Source: Panopea generosa (lineage: Eukaryota; Mollusca; Bivalvia; Adapedonta; Hiatellidae). From it: a stretch of DNA of 64,000 nucleotides. Below the pieces are notes generated by a model. That model saw nothing but the letters and a program-made list of their open reading frames with translations, did no database searches and was not told the origin of the DNA. Location of the stretch: positions 46,512,750 to 46,576,749 of the forward strand of contig CM055895.1 in assembly GCA_029582155.1 (NCBI GenBank), given 5' to 3'. Below, piece after piece: positions 3,326-42,808 of the stretch (position 1 is the stretch's first letter; the number at the start of each line of letters is the position of its first letter). A program made the translations under genes and the position numbers.

Positions 3326-6300
3326 TGTCCAACACTTCATGTGAAATGTTCACCAGTTTCTTGTGGAAGCTCCGATTCATCCCACCTCTGGATGTCACAC
3401 TACATAACCTGTAATGTGCTAAAAATGGCGTTATGCCCATTCGTTCAATGTTGTTATTAGTCATGCTTTTGGTGTGTCACCGAGCCTACCATCATCACAT
3501 AGCAAATCTTGTGTTCACCATAACTGTACGATTTTTGAGCACATAGCTCCAGAAATCACCGAGGTGCTCCGAATCTTCTTGCGGCTCGTTACAAAGAAGA
3601 CCCTTTATCACGCGACACACTCGGATATTTAATTACTGCCCTATTTACCCGGATATTGCGTGACAACAATTAAAACTGTTTTTAAAAAAGACAAAACTGA
3701 ACTTGAATGTTGAGAGAGTTAAAGTGGGTTAGAACAACCGTAGAAACTTGGGTAGAAATTCTACATCAAAGTAGGCTACATACACATTGGCCACTTGCCA
3801 TTCAGTAAAGATTCCAGGCCTGCGTTCATCACCGTTAAACAGCAAACACGTTTAATACCTGGTTCCCTTAAATTGTTGCGTACTGTGTGCTAACATGAGG
3901 TTTAGCCAGGGTCCAGGAAAATGTGTTAGCTAACGTTATCAAACGTTTAACCCAACTGAACGCAGCCCAGACTGGGTTCGGTTCGGTTAAAACGTCTATT
4001 TTCTTGGACACTCGACCAACAGACTGGCTCTGATTCAACAAAATAAAGAGTTCTGATACATAGTATATATAATACAGAAATATCCATGGAGAATTTGTTG
4101 TGTCATTTGTCCATTCTAACTACATGCCTGGTGGTAACTGGACGTTAGTATAGATGATGTTAAAGGTAGCGAGACTGATTTTTGTGGGGCGGGGGAGAGG
4201 GTTGAGGTGGTGGGTTGTACTATTATCTATATAGCAAATCAAGTCTTTGACTAAGTACCCTCTGAAAAGTAACGATTTTTTTCAACGCATATATGATGCG
4301 AACTTGTTACGATATATATAATCCACGATATATTTCATATGTAGTCGTTTCGATAACAAATAGCAGGAGCAGTCTAAACCAGACAGGGACGTAGTAGGCC
4401 TAAGTTGGTTGTGTAGGCACGGGCAGCGTAGAGGGTCTGGGGTCATATTTACAGCTATTACTCATGTGCAATATGATGATTGAATATAAATTCACACACA
4501 CGTTTTTACAGCATCACCAAACACAAGAAATGCAGCCCCTCGCCTTATTCAACCCTTAGACGTATACCTCATTCACTTTAAATTGCATTTTTTTTGCGTT
4601 TTTATTTTTTTTATTTGTCGGAGAAAGGTGAAGGCCCTTTAGGCAACTACACTTCTGTCAGACCACCAATAGTGAGACACACGCACAGAATGAATGATAT
4701 CAGAAACAAAACAAAATAATTCTCTTATATGCAGAACGAACCATTAACCGTTACAAGAATGCAACTTGAAGCACTAGTGAATAAAAAACATCACTTTTCT
4801 TACCTGTAAAATATTCCCCGTGTTAATTATACCATCACCGGCTGTCGTCTGACACAGCTGTTCCCAAACGGTAATTTGGGATTGATCCAAAAGCTGCACA
4901 GAATCTGAAACATATATGTTAGAAGATGCAATAAATTAAATGAAATCAATATTTCTAAAACTGCAGCAACAATATGGAGGCCAAGCCAAACAACAATATT
5001 GGATAAGTAACTGGGCAAACAAGTTGTCGTCTGCCGCATCTCACTCAATATCTTTAATTTCAGTTTTATGAAAGTAGTCATGTATCCTCTGTTGTAATAA
5101 ATGACCCCCACTATCATTATACAAGTTTATTACACGGTAACTGAATGTATGCCTACAGAACAGAATTATTGCACACCTAGTAAAAATGGCGATGTAAAGT
5201 TTAATATTGTTTGATACAGATGATAATTTCAAAACCGTTTATATAATCATCCTTATGTATATCACACACTCACTCTCAAAATAAAATCATTTGATGTTGT
5301 TATTATTTGTGTATACGTTTTATATCCAAATGTCGTCTGCTCTGTGTTCACCAGCGTGTTGCGCATTGATATTTATAAGAACGCATATATTAGTCAGTTT
5401 TTTTTTATATTTATGGTTTTGCACTATCTGCGTCACAATCATAGATAAAAATTATATACCTATATCAAATGTTATATTCCCATATCAGCGATTTTTTTAA
5501 CTCCACACTACGCGCTGAATATAAATCAATCCACCCACACCTGTACTACGCCGGGCGTTTCCCGAAATGAGACGAATGACTGTAAACAACACAGGTAACG
5601 CGTTACCTAAGCCGTATATCGAGGTAATAATGCAACTGGGTCAAATGTTTGAACGGGGAAATATAAAATTGCACACAAGGAGAATCTCAATTTTATGCAG
5701 TAAAATTTAAGTAAATGGTCATTCGATGGTCGTAGTAAAATGATGGTTGGTGGCCGGTGAGCGTATGACGCTTGAGTAAGCTCGTGTGTAAATACTGACA
5801 CATTCCGCACATAGTTGAATGTTTATATGCGTGTGCGTGTGTTATGCTGGTAACATTTAACGCTATTAGACCATACGGTTACTTGAAATGGCTTTGAATT
5901 TCAGATAGCACACAATTGTCCAGGAAATATCAAGTATTCATTTCAAATCATTAAACAACGGGGTGATCCGATTACTACTTCTAGCCATACCAGAAACAAT
6001 GACTACACAGTTTCGTTTTTTGCTTACTGCAGTTAAAATACCATGTAAACATGTATATGGATGTATGTATGTGTTCATGTAATATTGTTGTATACATCAA
6101 CGAAGATGAAACATTCACGCCACGATGAGAATGCATAACGAGTGACTGTAGCAGTTTTCGTTTATGCATTCAAGCGGTGTAGTTAACGAAATATCAGAAT
6201 TATTTTGATGATTTTTCCCACTGGGCTTTTCTTATTAACATTAATATGTTTTGTGGGTGTGCCGGCAGTGTGCCAAATCATGATCATAACTCTACGTGCA

Positions 6301-30600: not shown

Positions 30601-33600
30601 TAACGCATTGGGCTCCCCGGGAAGCTCTAGGCGTCAGGAGCTCTATACGTCAAGAGCTCTATGTATCAGGAGCTCTAAATATCAGGAGCTTTATGAGCCA
30701 AAAGCTCTATGCGTCAGGGGCTCTATATGTCAGGAGCTTTTTGCGTCAGGAGCTCAATACGTCAAGAGCTCTATGCGTCAGGAGCTCTATTTGTCAGGAG
30801 CTCAATACGTCAGGAGCTGTATACGTCAGGAGCCCTATACGTCAAGAGCTCTACATGTCAGGAGCTCTATACGTCAGGAACTATATACAGGAGCTCTATA
30901 TACATCAGGAGCTCTATGCAGGGGCTCTTTGCGTCAGGAGTTTTGTACGTCAGGAGCTCTATGCGTCAGGAGCTATATGCTTCAGGAGCTCTGTACGTCA
31001 GGAGCTCTATAAAGGAATTCTATGCACCAGGAGCTCTATGCGTCAGGAGCTCTAGGCGCCAAAAGTTCTATGCGTCAGGAGCTCTATACGTCAGGAGCTT
31101 TATGCGTCAGGAGCTCTGTACGTCAGGAGCTCTATGCATCAGGAGCTCTGTGCTTCAGGAGCGTAAACAGGAGCTCTATGCGTCAGGAGCTCCATGTGTC
31201 AGGAGCTTGTACGTAAGGAGCTCTGTACGTCAGGAGCTCTATGCATGAGTTCTATGTGTCAGGAGATTTATGCATCAGGAGCTCTATGCGTCAGGAGCTC
31301 TGTTCGTCAGGGGCTCTGTACGTCAGGAGCTCTATGCAGGGGTTTTATGCGTCAGGAGCTCTATGCAGGAGCTTTATGCGTCAGAAGCTCCATGTGTTAG
31401 GAGCTATATACGTCTGGAGCTATATGCGCCAATAGCTCTATAAGTCAGGAGCTCTATGTAGGAGCTTTATGCGTCAGGAACTCTATATGTCAGGAGCTCT
31501 ATACGTCAGGAGCTCTTTGCAGGAGTTCTATGCGTCAGGAGGTCTATGCAGGAGCTCTATGCATCAGGAGCTCTTTGCAGGAGTTCTTTGCGTCAGGAGC
31601 TCTATGCAGGAGTTCTATGCGCCAGGAGCACTATGCGTTAGGAGCTCTATGCGCCAAGAGCTCTCTGCGTAAGGAGCTCTATGCATCAGGAGATATATAC
31701 GTCAAAAGCTCTATGCGTCAGGAGCTCTATGCGTCAGGAGCTTTATGCGTCAAGAGCTTTATACGTCAATAGCCATATACGTCAGGAGCTCTGTGTAGGA
31801 GCTGTATGTGTCTGAAGCTTTATGGACCTGGAGCTCTCTACACCAAGAGCTCTATGCAGGAGCTCTATACGTCAGGAGCTCTATGCAGGAGCTCTATGCG
31901 TCAGGAGCTCTATTCGTCATAGCTCTATGCGTCAGGAGCTTGTACGTCAGGAGCTCTGTACGTCAGGACATCTATGCATGAGTTCTATGCGTTAGGAGCT
32001 TTATGCGTCAGGAGTTCTATGCGTCAGGAGCTCTGTACGCCAGGAGCTATGTACGTCAGGAGCTCTGTACGTCAGGAGTTCTATGCAGGAGTTCTATGTG
32101 TCAGGAGCTCTATGCAGGAGTTCTATGCGTCAGGAGCTCTGTGCAGGAGCTTTATACGATAGGAACTCTATGCGCCAGGAGCTCTATGAAGGATCTCTAT
32201 GCGTCAGAATATCCAAGCGTCAGGAGCTATATACGTCAGGAGCTTTATGCGCCAATAGCTCTATGGGTCAGGAGCTGTTTGCAGGAGTTCTATGCGTCAG
32301 GAGCTCTATGCAGGAACTCTATGCATCAGAAGCTCTTTGCAGGAGTTCTTTGCGTCAGGAGCTCTATGCGTCAGGAGCACTATGCGTCAAGAGCTCTATG
32401 CGTAAGGAGCTCTATGCATCAGGAGATCTATACGTCAAGAGCTCTATGCGTCAGGATCTCTATGCGTCAGGAGCTTTATACGTCAGTAGCCTATACGTCA
32501 GGAGCTCTATGCAGGAGCTCTATGTGTCAGAAGCTTGATGCGTCTGGAGCTCTATACGTCAGGAGCTCTATGCAGGAGCTCTATACGTCAGGAGCTCTAT
32601 GCAGGAGCTCTTTACGTCAGGAGCCCTATATGTCAGGAGTTCTATAAAGGAGCTATATGCGTCAGGAGCTCTATGTGTCATGAACTCTATACGTCAGGAG
32701 CTTTATACGTCAGGAGTTTATGCGTCAGGAGCTCTATACGTCAGGAGCTCTATGCAGGAGCTCTATGCTGGAGCTCTATATGTCAAGAGCTCTATACGTC
32801 AGGAGTTCTATGCGCCAGGAACTCTATTCGTCAGGAGCTCTATGCATCAGGAGCTCTGTACGTCAGGGGCTCTATGCGTCAGGAGCTTGTACGTCATGAG
32901 CTCTGTACATCAGGAGCTCTATGCATGAGTTCTATGCGTCAGGAGCTCAATGCGTCAGGAGCTCTATGCTTCAGGAGCTCTCTACGTCAGGAGCTATGTA
33001 CGTCAGGAGCTCTGTACGTCAGGAGCTCTATGTAGGAGTTCTATGCGTTAGGAGCTCTATGCAGGAGTTCTATGCGTCAGGAGCTCTATGCAGGAACTCT
33101 ATACGTCAGTAGCTCTATGCGCCAGGAGCTCTATGCAGGATATCTATGCGTCAGAAGCTCCATGCGTCAGGAGCAATATACGTCAGGATCTCTATGCGCC
33201 AAAAGCTATATGAGTCAGGAACTCTATGCGTCAGGAGCTCTATGATTCTGGAGCTCTATATGCCAGGAGCTCTATACGTCAGGAGCCCTATATGTCAGGA
33301 GCTCTATGTGTCAGGAGCTCTATACGCCAGGAGCTCTATGCAGGAGTTCTATGCGTCAGGAGCTCTATACAGGAGCTCTGTGCATCAGGAGCTCTATGCG
33401 TCAGGAGCACTATGCGTTAGGAGCTCTATGCGCCAAGAGCTCTATGCGTAAGGAGCTCTATTCATCAGAAGATCTATACGTCAAGAGCTCGATGCGTCAG
33501 GAGATCTATGCATTAGGAGCTCTATACTTCAGGAGATCTATGCGTCAGGAGCTCTATTCATCAGAAGATCTATACGTCAAGAGCTCGATGCGTCAGGAGA

Positions 33601-34790
33601 TCTATGCATTAGGAGCTCTATACTTCAGGAGATCTATGCGTCAGGAGTTATATGCGTCAGGAAGCTCTATGTGCCAGGAGTTTGCCAGAAGCTCTATACG
33701 TCAGGAGCTCTATACGTCAGGAATTCTATGCGTCATGAGCTCTATGGGTCAGGAACTCTATGCGTCAAGAGCTCTATACCTCAGGAGCTCTTTACGTCAG
33801 GAGCTCTATACGCCTGGAGCTCTATGCGCCGAGAGCTCTATACGTCAGGAACTTTATACATTAGGAACTCTATGCGTCAGCAGTTCTATGTGTCAGGAAC
33901 TCTATGCATCAGGAGCTCTATATGTCAGGAGCTCTTTAAGTCAGGAGCTCTATACGCCTGGAGCTCTTCTGCCACGAGCTCTCTACATCAGGATATCTAT
34001 GAGTCAGGAGCTTTATGCATCCGGAGCTCTATGCATCAGGAGCTATATGCGCCAGGAAGCTCTATTCGTTAGGAGCTCTATGCGTCAGGAATTCTATGCA
34101 TCAGGAGCTCTATGCATCGGGAACTATATGCGTCATTAGCTCTCTGCATCAGGAGCTTTATGCGTCAGGAGCTCTATGCATCAGGAGCTCTATGCGTCAG
34201 GAGCTATATGCGCCATGAGCTGTATGCGCCAGGAGCTCTATACATCAGGAGGAGCTATATACGTCAGGAGCTCTATGCGCCAAAAGCTCTATACGTCATG
34301 AGCTCTATGCGCCAGGAGCTATATGCGTCAGAAGCTCTATGCATTAGGAGCTCTATACGTCAGGAGCTCTTTGCGTCAGGACATCTATGCATCAGGAGCT
34401 CTATGCACCAGGAAGCTCTATGCACCAGGAAGCTTTTTGCGTTAGGAGCTCTATGTGTCAGGAGCTCTATGCGTCAGGAGCTCTATGCATCAGGAGCTCT
34501 ATGCGTCAGGAGCTCTATGCACCAGGAGCTCTATGCGTCAGGAGCTCTATGCATCAGGAGCTCTATGCGTCAGGAGCTCTATGCGTCAGGAGCTCTATGC
34601 GTCAGGAGCTCTATGCATCAGGAGCTCTATGCGTCTGGAGCTCTATGCGTCAGGAGCGTTATGCGTCAGGAGCGTTATGCGTCAGGAGCTCTATGCGTCA
34701 TGAGCTCTATGTGTCAGGAGCGTTATGCGTCAGGAGCTCTATGCGTCAGGAGCTCTATGCGTCAGGAGCGTTATGCGTCAGGACCTCTAT
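30601..34790. repeat. 16-bp GAGCTC array (about 260 units)
   Basis: The unit is GAGCTCTATGCGTCAG, with ATACGTCAG and GCATCAG variants and frequent deletions. Sixteen is not a multiple of three, so each plus frame encodes the same 16-residue repeat (RQELYASGALCVRSSM), and ORFs up to 277 codons (33306-34139) appear in all three frames. A block of six units at 33452 is repeated at 33548 (96-bp spacing). The array stops sharply at about 34790. It is not considered coding. Confidence 0.95.
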
Positions 34791-35034
34791 GGGGTCTCAC
34801 AACGCTCTCCTCAATAATCCGATGTTAAAATCATTCACTTGAATGTATCGACAAAGACTTGAGATGTTTTCCAATCTTCAAAAACACGAATATATTTATA
34901 GTAGATCTAGAGGATGACGATCAATTCTTATCTTTATTGCTCAGTTTATGATTCAGTTCGATCAACGTATTTCTAACCCCAGTCATTATATTTTGTTTTA
35001 CTCAGTTATGCCATAAAAAAAACTAGTGTAATAG

Positions 35035-35060
35035 TTTAAGGTATTCTATTGGCAAGTAAC
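35035..35060 (+). repeat. Candidate left terminal inverted repeat of the ISL2EU-like element
   Basis: TTTAAGGTATTCTATTGGCA and the next six bases agree at 21 of 26 positions with the reverse complement of 39440-39465. It was found by eye, and the exact terminus is uncertain. Confidence 0.45.
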
Positions 35061-35470
35061 ACAAACATGCTGTTAATCCAGACTTTTCCTGTATGCAGTG
35101 TGCACAAAATAATGCTTATGTATTGACGTATAACCTTTATTTACTTGAAAGTTATCAAATTAACAATAATTGAATATTGGCCAAAACTTTAATACGTCCC
35201 TCAATAACGTATTGCGCAATGTTTACATTGAACTCTGTAAGCCTCGAAAACGAGATCGGGAACGAGTCTTCACGAGGTTATCCGATGATTGATCGGAAAC
35301 CCGAACGCGGTTCGTTGAAAATGGCGAAGGTAAACAAAAACAAAAACGTGGCCTCACAAACCCGATGTTGTAATAAAGAGGTTATGCAATTCACCTCTCT
35401 CAAATTGTATGCATGCCTTAGATTCCATTATCAGAACGAGGCTGGGTGAGCAAACAAACTGACCAGAAAA

Positions 35471-37378
35471 ATGGCTACAGGTAGAAGTAGTGCTAGACAT
35501 TGTTGTGTTCCCTTATGTGTGTCTGATGACCGATATTCAGATACAATCAGTTTTCACAAATTTCCAAAGGATGAAAGTTTAAGAAAACAATGGATTGTAA
35601 AAATCAGAAGAGATGAGGGACCCTTTTTCAAGGTAATTATTACTATGTTTCATTCAGATTTATATAAACTTATATATCTATTATCATTTCTTGTTTACCC
35701 ATTTAAATGGTTCAGAAAATTAAATACCAACTGTCATTTTGTATTATACGCAGTTTTTGTAAACTGCATTAATATTGTATTTTAATTCATATTAATTAAA
35801 GTAAACATATCCCGTTGTTTATCTGCACATTCCATTACCGTATTAATGTAAAAAAAAAAAAAAAATCTTTCAGATTACTGATTCAACAGTTGTGTGTTCC
35901 AACCACTTCAAGACTGATGATTTTAAATGGACACCTCTCAAAAAGACATTAAAAAAAGGCGTTGTCCCTTCAGTTTTTAATTGGGCTGTAATCAAAACAC
36001 CAAGACGAGTATTTGAAAGGAAACAGCTTGCCCCGGATCTAGGAAACATTATGAAAGTATCAGAAAGGTAAAAAAAACTATGCTTGTGATAAAAATAAAA
36101 AAATAATAAAAAATATATATATATTTATCTATATATATTGAATAAAATGAAGATCAAATTACCAATTTCCAGTTATTCTTTATTAAAAGAGTAATATATG
36201 ACCATGTATCATGCAAATCAGTTTTAGAAATACACAAGCAAGAATGACCTTTGTAATTACAATTTATTTTCAGTGAAATATCGCCAGCAATCAATACAGA
36301 AACGGACACAGTCATGGAGGGAATATCTTTTGGACATATTGCTACAGATGAAACGCATTTCCAGGAGGAATTGAGGTTAAAGATAGCTGAATTGAAGTTA
36401 AAAACAGATGAATGTGAAAAATTACAAAACCAATTAGACATTGAACGTTTTGGTGTAAACAGATTTTCTAATGACAATAACCTGATTCTTTTTTACACTG
36501 GATTTACTTCATATATGTCATTTATTACATTCTTCAACTGTATAAAGCCAACAGCTCTTACTATGCAAAGTGCTTACTATAAAAGTAGCGAAACACTTAG
36601 TCTTGCTGGTCGAAGACGTTCAATGTTATTGATTGACGAATTGTTTATGTTTTTATGTAGGTTGAGGGCTGGTCTGTTAGAACAAGATTTGTCGGTGCGA
36701 TTTAACTGTTCATTGTCTTCTGTTAGTAGGAAAATTGTAACCTGGGTAAACCTTCTATATATCTCATTAGGTTCGATTCCTCTGTGGCTACCAAAACATG
36801 AAATACAGAGACTTATGCCAGAAGAATTCAAAACACTTCATCCAAATACACGTGTTGTAATTGATTGTACTGAAATCAGAATTCAAAAACCTTCATCTCT
36901 TGTATTTAATTCGCAATCATTTTCAAATTACAAGGGCGCCAACACATTCAAATGCTTGCTTGGTGTTGCTCCACATGGTACAATCACTTTCATTTCCTCA
37001 TTGTATACAGGATGTATGTCAGACGTCGAGATCACAAGGCTGTGTGGTTTGTTGGACCTTTTGGAACCAGGTGACGATGTTATGGCCGATAAGGGTTTTA
37101 CAATTAAAAAGTTACTGTCTGAAAAAGGTGTCACATTAAATATTCCACATTTTCTAAGCTCAAAGCATCAGTTTAACATACAAGAAGTGGAAGATATTGA
37201 AAATATTGCTAAATTAAGGATTCATATTGAAAGAATGAATAGAAGAATAAAAGAAAACCATTTATTTGATACTCCCATTCCAATCTCATTGTGCGGCAGT
37301 ATTAATCAGCTCTGGACTGTGGCATGCATACTGGCACTATTTAAAGGTCCCATTGTAGAAGCATGGGGTGCTGTGTAA
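35471..37378 (+). CDS. THAP-domain DDE transposase (three exons, 486 aa)
   Basis: The enzyme that would cut and insert the element. Exons 35471-35632, 35874-36067 and 36274-37378 have GT/AG borders and agreeing phases. The N-terminal THAP zinc finger is split by intron 1: CCVPLC (C11/C12, C16), FHKFP (29-32), W41, then CSNH (C62, H65) and a PSVF variant of the AVPTIF motif. A Leu/Glu-rich coiled coil follows (about 147-175, EELRLKIAELKLKTDECEKL), then a helix-turn-helix-like block (LSVRFNCSLSSVSRKIVTW). The DDE_Tnp_4-type core has VVIDCTEIRI (D316), GCMSDVEIT, VMADKGF (D391) and IHIERMNRRIK (E438). All three catalytic acids are present. THAP should bind the element ends; this is known for the family, not shown here. 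The ATG at 35471 was chosen because the zinc finger starts ten residues later. Its partner YqaJ gene is convergent. Confidence 0.88.
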
Positions 37379-37450
37379 CGCAAATGGTCAATAGTGGGAA
37401 TTGCATACTGCATTTTAGTGCTGTTAATAACGAGTATCATACATTGACAC

Positions 37451-39334
37451 TTACAAAAAATCGTTGAAATAAAACATGTCAACCTTTTCCTTAACACCAT
37501 CCCATATGTTTGCATTAAAATAAATTGTTTCTCTATGATAGTCAGATGGACACCATACAAAAAAGTCGCACCAGTCCAAGCCAGTTACAGCTAATTGTGT
37601 TAAGACTTGATAATAGTAGGAATGGTTTCTTTTTAGTTTTAGTTGCCCAGTTGCATCCTTTTGTAGATATTTGGCCTCTAGAACACTTGGAACCTGTGGA
37701 CATTTAATTTCCAAGAGGCCAAACGTTGGCGTCATGCTTGGATTGTAAACCTTACGGTCTGGTGTTGCTGCTAACCACGGTGCCCAGTAATTTACAACAA
37801 CTCCACACGAGTATAGGTTAACTTGGGAGTCTAAACACTTTGCGTATTCAGACGCAGCAAAAGGCTCCGACGCTATTCCTTGACGCATGGCAGCAGTAGT
37901 AACATGTCTTGTAGATTTCAGTCTTTCGACAAGTGTGTTATTCTCTTTGCGCCTTTTATAAATTTCGCCTATATTGGAGGCGGTCAGTCTGTGTTTTCTT
38001 ACTTTATACCACAGTGTACTTTGGTTTTGAAGTCTTGTTTGGGTTTCAAACTTTCCAATTTCAGTTTTTGTCAATGTTAATGATTCCAGCATAACCTGTT
38101 TGTCATTGTCTAATACTCTGTTGTAATTGTTGCACATAAAGTTCTGTTGTGGTAATTCAGGAAATGATGTTTCATCAAACAAATTGATGACACAGTTTTG
38201 TTCAAGTCTCTGCTGGTAGGATAAAACACTACCTCTGGGTACTTGGCCAAACTTACAGGAGACACTCTCAATATTCTCAAGCTTTATTGCTGGTATGATC
38301 AGCATATCCTTCACAGATGACTGTAGGTCATCAACATGGCATTTCCAGTTGACACCATCCCCACGCACTGGGTTATAAAGAGTAGATCTTACATCTCTTG
38401 GTGTTGACGATGTCGAAATTTTCGAGTGACCACTGACAGTTAAATCCTGCACAGCTTTCTTTTGTATTCGTACTCCTCTTGGGGCGTGCCAAGACTGGGG
38501 CAAAGATGTTTTTGCCACATCTTCAGGCAGGACTCGCGTTTCCAACATTTTATACTTAGCCAGCTGGTACAGTAGGCCCACAACATGTCCACAAGCTCCA
38601 GTCTGGCCTATGGGACATGAGCATGTTGCTTTTTCCACGTTTGGAATGTCAGATGATGCAAATGTTACCTGAAAATATAATGCAAACTCAATATAGCTGG
38701 TATTTGTATGTATATAAAGGTCAATATTATATAAAAAATTGTTGTAAATCAATTAAAAATAAAATAAAATGTTTAACATACCATCATTTTGTTTGGAGTT
38801 TCACTCTTTTTTTGGGAATGAAAGCATTTTCCATAAACATCAGACTTGCCATTCTTCAATTGAACTGAAACAAAAAAACAAAAAATTAGAGCAAATACGG
38901 TAATCTATACAACTTAAATGAAAATTCCAACAAGCACATTCTAAATACATGTAGCTAATTAATTTATTATCCTTTCACCAGCATTTGGAAGTGTGTATTG
39001 GAATAACAGAGGTAGGATAGATAATATAGATCTAAATGTATGCAGAGATTTCTGTTTATATGAAAAAAGAAAGTGCATATTGTGTAAGTAGTAAGTAGAA
39101 ATTTAACTCACCTGATAAATCATGAACATAGTTTTCACTAAAATATTTGAATCCTCTTCCTATTGACTTGTTTCCAGATGACTTTTTTGTTTCTTTGATA
39201 TAATCTTCAACGAATGAGAATGAAAAATCTGGAACTAATGATAAATCTCTAGCACTGTAGGCAGCCATGACTGTGAAATGTAAACAAGTAGCGTGCTCAC
39301 CAGGCCTCACTCTGAAAAATCTCTTAATATTCAT
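37451..39334 (-). CDS. SWIM zinc finger plus YqaJ-type nuclease (three exons, 485 aa)
   Basis: Second protein of the ISL2EU-like element. Exons on the minus strand are 39268-39112 (first ATG of the frame is at 39334, but MAAYSARDL at 39268 is the likelier start), 38864-38782 and 38668-37451, all with GT/AG borders and matching phases. Order: a short N-terminal region, a SWIM zinc finger CSCPIGQTGACGH (C96, C98, C106, H108), a linker, then a YqaJ/lambda-exonuclease-like PD-(D/E)XK fold with LTASNIGEI, GIASEPFAASEY (E348), PDRKV (D384), GLLEIKCP (E400, K402) and HSYYYQVLTQL. The complete PD...ExK set suggests an active nuclease. Its function in transposition is not established to my knowledge; end processing is a guess. 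The minus-strand stop lies 72 bp from that of the transposase, so the two transcripts converge and may share or overlap poly(A) regions. Confidence 0.87.
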
Positions 39335-39439
39335 GAGATAATATTAAGAGTGGTCTATTGGACACATTAGAGGCGTATATCTCTAAGTTTTAAGTGTATC
39401 TTTATGCTTGGCGTGTGTATTTAGGACGGGGAATTGACG

Positions 39440-39465
39440 GTAACATGCCAATATAATCCCTTTAA
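39440..39465 (-). repeat. Candidate right terminal inverted repeat of the ISL2EU-like element
   Basis: It reads, inverted, TTAAAGGGATTATATTGGCA and onwards, matching the left candidate at 21 of 26 positions. It lies about 105 bp beyond the most upstream ATG of the YqaJ gene. Confidence 0.45.
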
Positions 39466-39466
39466 C

Positions 39467-40119: not shown

Positions 40120-42808
40120 AAGACTGGTGGGAAATATTATAATCGTTTATCTCTTCAAATGACAAACCAGCAATCCATCCACTGAATGACAATGGAACTA
40201 TTGTTTCCGATTTTGGTTTAAAAGCCAATTTACTTAATAATTTTCTCAATCTCAGTCAATTTTAAATGACGAAGACATTGAACCACCCATTTAAATACCT
40301 AGACATAACATCCCAGGTTTACCAGATATTATTTTACTACCTACCGATGTGTGCAATATTCTTAATTTGTTATCAGCAGATAAAGTCTCCAGCCCCGATG
40401 AAATTAATAATTATGTTCTCCGTGTGCTAAGCAAGGAATTATCGTCTCCATTGTGTGATTTGTTTGACTCTTGTTTAACAAACGGTTTATATAAAGAAGT
40501 TTGGAAGGAAGCGTTAGTATGTGCTATTTACAAGAAAGGAGACCCGTCTTTAGCTAATAGTTACAGACCAATTTCACTTAATAGTGTATTGAACAAAGTG
40601 TTTGAAAGGCATATGTTCAATTACTTTCGAGATTCTAACTCATCATTTCAATCTGGTTTTGTCCCTGGTGATTGAACCATCAATCAACTTTTCAATCTTT
40701 ACAATCCGTTCTGCAAAGCGATTGATGATGGCAAAGAGGTCAGTGTTGCATTTTTTATATAAGTAAAGCCTTTGTTAGAGTTTTGCTCAACGGGTTGTTG
40801 GCTAAATTGAAAGCAGCTGGCATATATTGCCAACTTTTAAAGCTTCTAACTGACTATCTTAAAGACAGACGCCAATGTGTTGTCATTCCAGGTGCAAGGT
40901 CTAGTTGGAGACCAATTGAAGCTGGTGTTCCCCCAGGGATATTTATTAGGTCCACTTCTGTTTCTAGTTTATATAAATGACATAGTATCTGGCATTGACT
41001 CCAACATACGACTTTTTGCCGATGACACAAGTCTATACTTTATAATTAACCATAATAATGAGATTGCTAAGGCCGCTCGGAAATTAAATTCGGACATAAA
41101 TAAAACTTCTGAATGATCAAATAAATGGCTTGTTACATTTAATCCACCCAAAACAGAATCATTGCATATATCTCGCAAACGCACTCAACCCGCTCACCCC
41201 TCACTTTTTTATGCAGAACCAACAAATTTTAGAAGTGCCATCACATAGACATCTAGGAGTATATTTATCCAATAACTGCAGCTGGCACACTTATATTGGC
41301 TATATTAAGAATAAAGCTTGGACTTAAATAAATATTATGAGAAAACTAAAATTTCAATTAGATAGAAAATCACTCGAAACTATTTATATTTCATTTATTA
41401 GACCTTTATTGGAATATGCCGATGTTATTTGGGATACTTGTACAACTTATGAATAAATGAACTTGATAAAATACAGAACGAGGCTGCAAGTATAACAACT
41501 GGAGTTACAAAGCTAATATCAATTAATAACTTGAATTCTGGAGTAGAATGGGGAAGTCTTGAAACTCTCCGTTATAAATACAAACTTGCTCTTTTTTATA
41601 AAATGATCCTTGGTATGGTCCCACCATATCTATCTTCATTGGTTTTTCCTTTTACAAATGCAAATTCAACGTACAACCTCAGAAATAATAATAATATTCA
41701 AATCCCTACTTCAAGAACAGCTCTGTACTCAAATTCCTTCATTCCTTCCATTGTCCGTGAATGGAACACTCTCCCACTTGAAACAAAACAAGCTTCTTCT
41801 CTGAGTGCTTTCAAACACCAACTTGATAGTAAGGAATCAATAGTACCAACATTATTGTACATAGGTACAAGGAAATGCCAACTACTGCATGCTCGCCTTC
41901 GAACGAGCTATAGTGCTCATAAGCAACATCTATTTCTTAAACACACTGTAGATTCCCCTCTGTATATGTGGTCAAATAGAGAGCACAGCTCACTTCTTTC
42001 TATATTGCAGACTTTACAAGCTTCAACGCATACTTCTCCTGACAACTGTCAACGAGTTTAAATATACTTCTTTTTGACGAACCGAAACTCTCTTATGACA
42101 ATAATGTTAAAATATTTGAAGCAGTCCACAAATACATTATAACTACCAATCGCTTCTCCTAAAATATGTAGGTCTGAAGAACAAATACGGCTGTTTCAAT
42201 TTATGTGATGAGCTCAGCTCGTCTTTCAGTTTGTCCATGCCGCTAAGAACATGTCCATAAATGCTAATAAGTATAATTATGTGAATTTATATAATATATA
42301 CATAATTACAACTACTCTACTCTTTTTCAATTACCCGCTTCACTTATATTTTTCTTAAACATATTAGAAATATTATTCTTACAATATGTAATGATATTTT
42401 TACTAAGCATATTTTGAACTAGGTTTTATTCATAAAGTTAAGAGCATACATAAAATTGTTAATGATCTGCCAAATCTGTTTACATTTTATATATGTCATG
42501 GGGAAGAACTTTATAAGATTTTATCTTCCGTTCTAATCCATATTTATACTTTTGTACTGATTTGTATGCATGTACATTTGAATGAATAAATATGTTTAAA
42601 CAAGGAAGTTCTTGTAATAAGAAGAATACCCTTGAAAATATGATTGTTTTGCAAGATTTAAGTACATGTGATGTGTTGTAATCTGTGTAATGTTTGTTTT
42701 ATATTTTTATTACAATATGTATTGTCTTAGCCATATTTCTTTGTAAAACTTTGTAAATGGCCGAAGGCAAAATCTGCCGATTGCTGAATAAACTTGAATT
42801 GAATTGAA
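40120..42808 (+). pseudogene. 5'-truncated non-LTR retrotransposon, CR1/Jockey-like RT
   Basis: The sequence enters at the linker between endonuclease and RT (DWWEIL near 40120, then IHPLNDNGTIVSDF). RT blocks follow in shifting frames: VSSPDEINNYVLRVLSKEL (40382-40440), SYRPISLNSVLNKVFERHMF (40561-40620), FQSGFVPGD, LLGPLLFLVYINDI, then the catalytic FADDTSLY (41011-41034), and later SRTALYSNSFIPSIVREWNT and LP (41710-41775) of the C-terminal domain (41531-42061). Premature stops at 40674, 40759 and 41115 plus frameshifts near 40935 and 41430 make it inactive. The 3' UTR ends at about 42784-42808 in AATAAACTTGAATTGAATTG, a short TTGAA repeat tail in place of poly(A), as in CR1-type elements. 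No endonuclease domain is in this copy. Confidence 0.85.

Follow-up and report, generated by a model that had tools for sequence, protein, structure and literature searches.

The 64,000-nucleotide stretch of the Panopea generosa genome analysed here (the window; GenBank assembly GCA_029582155.1, contig CM055895.1, positions 46,512,750 to 46,576,749 of the forward strand) carries an autonomous-looking transposon of 3966 bp at window positions 35391-39356. Taken as a whole, its domains, target site and gene arrangement make it very probably a cut-and-paste DNA transposon of the ISL2EU type, a kind known from animals, in the PHIS superfamily. It encodes a THAP-DDE transposase and, on the opposite strand, a YqaJ nuclease. 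This gene pair has been described for ISL2EU (PMC4482050, PMC9179366) and is not news, because it is a published hallmark of the group. What the present copy adds is an exact nested insertion with empty sites, a conserved SWIM-type finger in the nuclease, and evidence that this nuclease is under constraint.

Borders and target site

The source genome (1.47 Gb, 39 contigs) was searched with window positions 35034-39466, which the initial annotation had taken as the borders of the element; the best 40 of 1931 candidates were scored and the counts are lower bounds. Query positions 354-360 to 4326-4327 were matched at 95-99% in at least six other places, one of which (L007) matched in two pieces. 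At least 23 places matched query positions 1-5 to 358 (90-93%) and then 4324-4329 onward (79-93%), and the two matched parts abut or overlap within 3 bases in all 23 copies listed. Because six places match the inner part only and 23 match the joined outer parts, the transposon itself spans 35391-39356. The outer 357 and 110 bp are the halves of a ~470 bp repeat split by the insertion, and the wider borders had to be abandoned. The uninterrupted copies of this outer repeat serve as empty sites for the ISL2EU insertion. One of them, L078, reads GCAATTAGACAC; the filled site in the window reads GCAAT, the element, and ATTGGACAC.

35391..39356, no strand assigned: ISL2EU transposon, ends TCACCTCTCTCAAATTG ... 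AATATTAAGAGTGGTCT (from other copies and empty sites)
35389..35390, no strand assigned: AT target-site duplication, left copy (copies and empty site)
39357..39358, no strand assigned: AT target-site duplication, right copy (copies and empty site)
35035..35390, no strand assigned: outer ~470 bp repeat, left part, outside the transposon (90-93% to at least 23 copies; L078)
39357..39465, no strand assigned: outer ~470 bp repeat, right part, outside the transposon (79-93% to the same copies, at least 23; L078)

For the target site 17 loci were aligned, 13 of them with both ends readable. AT is found on both sides in 11 of these 13 (L001, the window copy, to L007, and L009, L011, L016 and L017); it is preceded by A at the left copy in 8 of the 11 and followed by T at the right copy in 10. 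The right AT is absent in L014 and L015, both decayed. The duplication in these copies is 5'-AT-3', mostly within A|AT|T, in agreement with the target published for ISL2EU (PMC4482050). A 3 bp ATT duplication was also considered and fits L001 and L002; the AT duplication is preferred because ATT does not fit L003-L007. The copies, empty sites and alignment that the initial annotation proposed to look for were thus all obtained, namely six copies, one fragment and at least 23 uninterrupted outer repeats, with the ends and the AT duplication read from the aligned copies.

The transposase and nuclease genes

Each gene is predicted to have three exons with GT-AG introns. The transposase has 486 residues and the nuclease 485, and the two genes converge with 72 bp between their stops. 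On full-length frames, the borders of the four introns and the convergent arrangement the initial annotation was correct.

35471..35632, + strand: transposase exon 1, with the start of the THAP finger, residues 11-89 (gene model; Pfam THAP)
35874..36067, + strand: transposase exon 2 (gene model)
36274..37378, + strand: transposase exon 3, with HTH_Tnp_4 238-285, DDE_Tnp_4 315-472 and D316, D391, E438 (gene model; Pfam; alignment)
37451..38668, - strand: nuclease exon 3, with the SWIM-type finger C96/C98/C106/H108 and YqaJ 300-444 (E348, D384, E400, K402, Q434) (gene model; Pfam; alignment)
38782..38864, - strand: nuclease exon 2 (gene model)
39112..39268, - strand: nuclease exon 1 (gene model; border recurs in L055)

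In the transposase, Pfam finds THAP (E 5.6e-18), HTH_Tnp_4 (E 2.8e-13) and DDE_Tnp_4 (E 1.2e-36). A single open reading frame (ORF) therefore holds the DDE, helix-turn-helix (HTH) and THAP domains that define an ISL2EU transposase. The solved structures matched by sequence are the THAP domains of THAP1, THAP2 and THAP11. Among 23 related loci, many of them broken and several near-identical, D316 is kept in 20, D391 in 19 and E438 in 16, the residue being uncovered in 2, 3 and 3 loci respectively.

The second ORF of ISL2EU encodes YqaJ, and Pfam finds YqaJ in the nuclease with an E of 2.3e-19; the sister copies described below bear this out. In the sister copy L055 the nuclease exon 1 has the same end, and a stretch resembling exon 2 is visible by eye. 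Among the same 23 loci E348 and D384 are each kept in 21, and E400, K402 and Q434 each in 20, with 2 loci uncovered. The best solved-structure match by sequence is the exonuclease 3syy (residues 296-452, E 2.1e-6). The YqaJ domain is related to recombination exonucleases of phages, with relatives in 55 phage records and 24-30% identity among the 15 matches listed; no relatives turned up in IMG/VR, whether the query was the nuclease or alignment A1. An AlphaFold model of nuclease exon 3 alone had a mean predicted local distance difference test score (pLDDT) of 34 and was not used.

Upstream of the YqaJ domain the nuclease has the ligand pattern CxCx7CxH at C96, C98, C106 and H108. The initial annotation had named four kinds of domain, THAP, DDE_Tnp_4, SWIM and YqaJ; domain searches recovered these, and HTH_Tnp_4, with the exception of SWIM, for which the Pfam match (PF04434) in the window nuclease has an E of 0.012 and 15.6 bits, below the cut-off of 19.6, and is absent in L055 and L056. 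Of the 23 loci, which are related and not independent, 18 retain all four ligands. A SWIM-type finger is supported by this conservation despite the low score. The word 'swim' is absent from the main texts of PMC4482050, PMC9179366 and PMC12730594, and supplements or Repbase may record the finger. Among the papers listed as naming both YqaJ and SWIM, none appears to deal with this transposon.

A further type of YqaJ gene in the genome, distant from the first, is exemplified by L099 (G000:C10:54917750-54919050), with ~34% identity. Open frames of this kind are found at several places (C10, C2, C12 and C15). Pfam also matches L099 to viral alkaline exonuclease, and its frame starts, after a likely intron, with C-x-H, which could be half of a SWIM motif.

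Relation to known elements

The Pfam domains and the AT duplication agree with the class given in the initial annotation, an ISL2EU-like element with a THAP-DDE transposase and a YqaJ nuclease. Published ISL2EU elements have an AT duplication in A|AT|T, ends that usually begin with GG, and an average length of ~4840 bp (PMC4482050). The present element resembles them in the AT within A|AT|T, in the THAP, HTH and DDE domains of the transposase and in the second YqaJ ORF, and its 3966 bp are of comparable length. It differs in its ends, AG on the right and TC on the left, and in the SWIM-type finger before YqaJ.

PIF/Harbinger has a related DDE domain and also two genes; its second protein, however, is Myb/SANT and its duplication is TWA (PMC4482050). 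Spy, of the same superfamily, has one ORF and no duplication (PMC4482050). Pangu, again of the same superfamily, usually has ends beginning with AG or GG, but its duplication is ANT and its second ORF Myb/SANT (PMC4482050); the 2 bp AT duplication and the YqaJ second ORF place the window element outside Pangu. KolobokE is a transposon that likewise has a PD-(D/E)xK lambda-exonuclease-like nuclease, but one located downstream of a different transposase domain, and the Kolobok duplication is TTAA (PMC9587614).

Copies, termini and age

The same family is represented in the genome by six further copies, L002-L007, and a fragment, L008, without the nuclease part. L001-L007 are full-length or nearly so, and their pairwise substitutions amount to 0.30-4.52% of aligned bases. 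The nearest copy to that of the window is L002, with 12 substitutions in 3946 aligned bases (99.2% BLAST identity, gaps counted). Both frames are open in the window copy only. In L002 the transposase has one stop and the nuclease frame is shifted; in L003 it is the transposase frame that is shifted and the nuclease that has one stop; in L004-L007 both genes are broken.

L009-L017 form a more distant group in which element positions ~1483 to 2645 are missing (slightly more in L014), so that the DDE and YqaJ halves are gone. Of the 30 loci L018-L047, 18 show this internal jump too, and three of those 18 coincide with L009, L011 and L016. Loci of this type are read as non-autonomous derivatives that probably arose by internal deletion. 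Deletion derivatives can encode repressors, as does KP of the P element; this was rejected for L009-L017 because their remaining frames are broken too.

The terminal inverted repeats are short and imperfect, and those of the commonest relatives are of the AGACC type, with AG, not GG. A left-end pattern gave 258 matches at up to 3 mismatches, vs 1 for the reversed control. A further 20 left ends chosen from the 258 fall into two types: one has AGACC in 6 of its 8 ends, the other AGGCC in 9 of its 12. L056 and L058 have the left end AT|AGACC (L079, L080); the right ends are GGGTCT|AT in L055 and L057-L059 and GGATGT|AT in L056. Within L001-L007 the variable columns number 284 of 3747 gap-free columns and the right terminus is invariant. 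The first four left bases after AT are, in order, TCAC, TCAC, ACAC, ACAT, ACTT, AGAC and ACAC; they were read by hand; in the MAFFT alignment L004 and L005 are displaced by two positions at this point. TCACC is common to L001 and L002, which lie at different sites.

At the left four bases (window 35391-35394) copies with 95-99.7% similarity elsewhere disagree; left-end variation occurs in other families as well but is less marked there. Near the right end a subterminal palindrome, CTCTTAATATT...AATATTAAGAG (window 39321-39350), corresponds to the core of the terminal repeat, inverted, and is a possible transposase binding site.

Sister families and constraint

Nuclease exon 3 has 111 matches in the genome. 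Among them a sister family, L055-L059, has ~60% amino acid identity to the window copy, its members being nearly identical to one another. Exon 3 of both genes is open in L055, L056, L057 and L059, and L058 has one nuclease stop. Between the window and sister copies synonymous differences are saturated (proportion pS 0.77-0.78). The nonsynonymous proportion pN is 0.28-0.29 in nuclease exon 3 and 0.25-0.26 in transposase exon 3. Compared with L055 by parts, the nuclease has amino acid identities of 73% in YqaJ, 57% in the SWIM stretch (40 codons) and 49% in the linker. Together with the retained residues, this pattern of conservation suggests that both enzymes, including the small zinc finger of the nuclease, have been kept by selection.

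Transposase and nuclease distances, compared across 21 of 25 loci, correlate with an r of 0.89, which near-identical copies inflate, and none of 2000 permutations was as high; L072, L073, L076 and L077 were left out because no more than 60% of a gene was covered. The two gene trees have three main groups in common, with within-group branches that differ and are weakly supported. Because the distances correlate and the trees agree in their main groups, the two genes seem to travel together; the comparison with sister copies suggests that the nuclease is about as constrained as the transposase.

Several observations weigh against reading the window copy as a young, autonomous ISL2EU element under selection. 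First, all six other copies of its family are broken in both genes. Second, its ends, AG and TC, depart from the usual published GG, and its left terminus, TCACC, is unlike the commonest, AGACC (14 of the 30 loci L018-L047, a set that includes L001-L007). Third, the last catalytic residue, E438, is K in 3 of 23 loci. Fourth, the ratio of nonsynonymous to synonymous rates (dN/dS) between the window and sister copies is not computable because dS is beyond range. Finally, the sister family is about as young as that of the window. The youth claimed in the initial annotation is borne out by the close match to L002, and is qualified by the left terminus and by the age of the sister family.

The broken copies and the altered left terminus would also fit a dead relic that keeps its frames by chance. 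Such a relic has to account for two intact frames, four intact intron borders, intact catalytic residues and a nearest copy only 12 of 3946 bases away, and is considered improbable.

Neighbouring features

In L078 the outer repeat measures 467 bp and has ~26 bp inverted ends, with TTAAAGGGATTATATTGGC on the left; each end bears TTAA. The repeat resembles a TTAA-type miniature inverted-repeat transposable element (MITE), presumably piggyBac- or Kolobok-like. Just left of the transposon, at 31019-34791, lies a tandem array 3.8 kb long with a 16 bp unit, TCTATGCGTCAGGAGC (242 copies, 76% matches), which contains long open frames. At 40295-41116 open frames resemble a decayed non-LTR (long terminal repeat) reverse transcriptase, as judged by eye.

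Possible roles of the nuclease

The role of the extra ORF of ISL2EU is called unknown in PMC4482050, in line with the remark in the initial annotation that the job of the nuclease is not established. As of 2022, the authors of PMC9179366 knew of no reported proof of ISL2EU activity. A mechanism can be proposed from the protein families. The THAP and HTH part of the transposase would bind the element ends, and the DDE domain would cut and join the 3' strands, the stagger being 2 bp. Less surely, the YqaJ lambda-exonuclease-like protein may reach the ends, or else the transposase, via its N-terminal SWIM finger, and may trim or cut 5' strands, either those of the element ends or those of the donor break. 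A catalytic role is inferred because the active site is kept. An active nuclease would somewhat probably take part in transposition; a role for it specifically at the 5' ends of the element is given about half that weight and is doubtful. The most likely role appears to be processing of 5' strands at one of these two places, the element ends or the donor break.

One version of end processing would resemble Tn7, the nuclease cutting the 5' strands at the ends as TnsA does, and the DDE transposase cutting the 3' strands. TnsA is a PD-(D/E)xK-type nuclease paired with a DDE enzyme, which speaks for the comparison, as do the active-site residues, retained in 20-21 of the 23 loci, and the varying first four left bases of L001-L007. 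Yet the right terminus is constant in those copies, left ends vary in other families, and the relatives of YqaJ and lambda exonuclease are processive exonucleases rather than end-specific cutters. In the literature, so far as available, TnsA and YqaJ were found named together only in a bacterial genome study. A TnsA-like division of labour is unlikely on this evidence.

An extension of end processing can be imagined in which ISL2EU is a two-nuclease system, the SWIM-guided YqaJ handling the 5' strands and the shifting left four bases being the scar. The variation at the left terminus is a weak, post hoc hint from seven copies, and its occurrence in other families weighs against a scar. This is a speculative and highly improbable version.

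The nuclease could instead repair or enlarge the donor break, the gap being healed from the sister copy so that copy number rises, with excision independent of it. Lambda-type exonucleases create 3' overhangs for annealing and recombination. Other transposons bear exonucleases too, lambda-exonuclease-like in KolobokE and DEDDh in KolobokD (PMC9587614). By analogy with these a donor-break role may be entertained, as a somewhat unlikely one.

Alternatively, the second protein may be mainly a partner for DNA binding or transport, as is the Myb-like protein of Harbinger, with catalysis secondary. Binding of DNA or protein is common among SWIM fingers. In Harbinger the second protein binds the ends and helps nuclear import (PMC9179366). 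A mere partner fits poorly with YqaJ being the best conserved of the three nuclease parts (73% vs 49% and 57%) and with the retained active-site residues, and this role is rated distinctly unlikely.

The favoured role, processing of 5' strands by an active nuclease, is open to experiment in this family. The window supplies a copy in which both genes are open and for which ends and empty sites are known; it is usable in an assay of whether the nuclease is needed and, within it, the active site and the SWIM finger.

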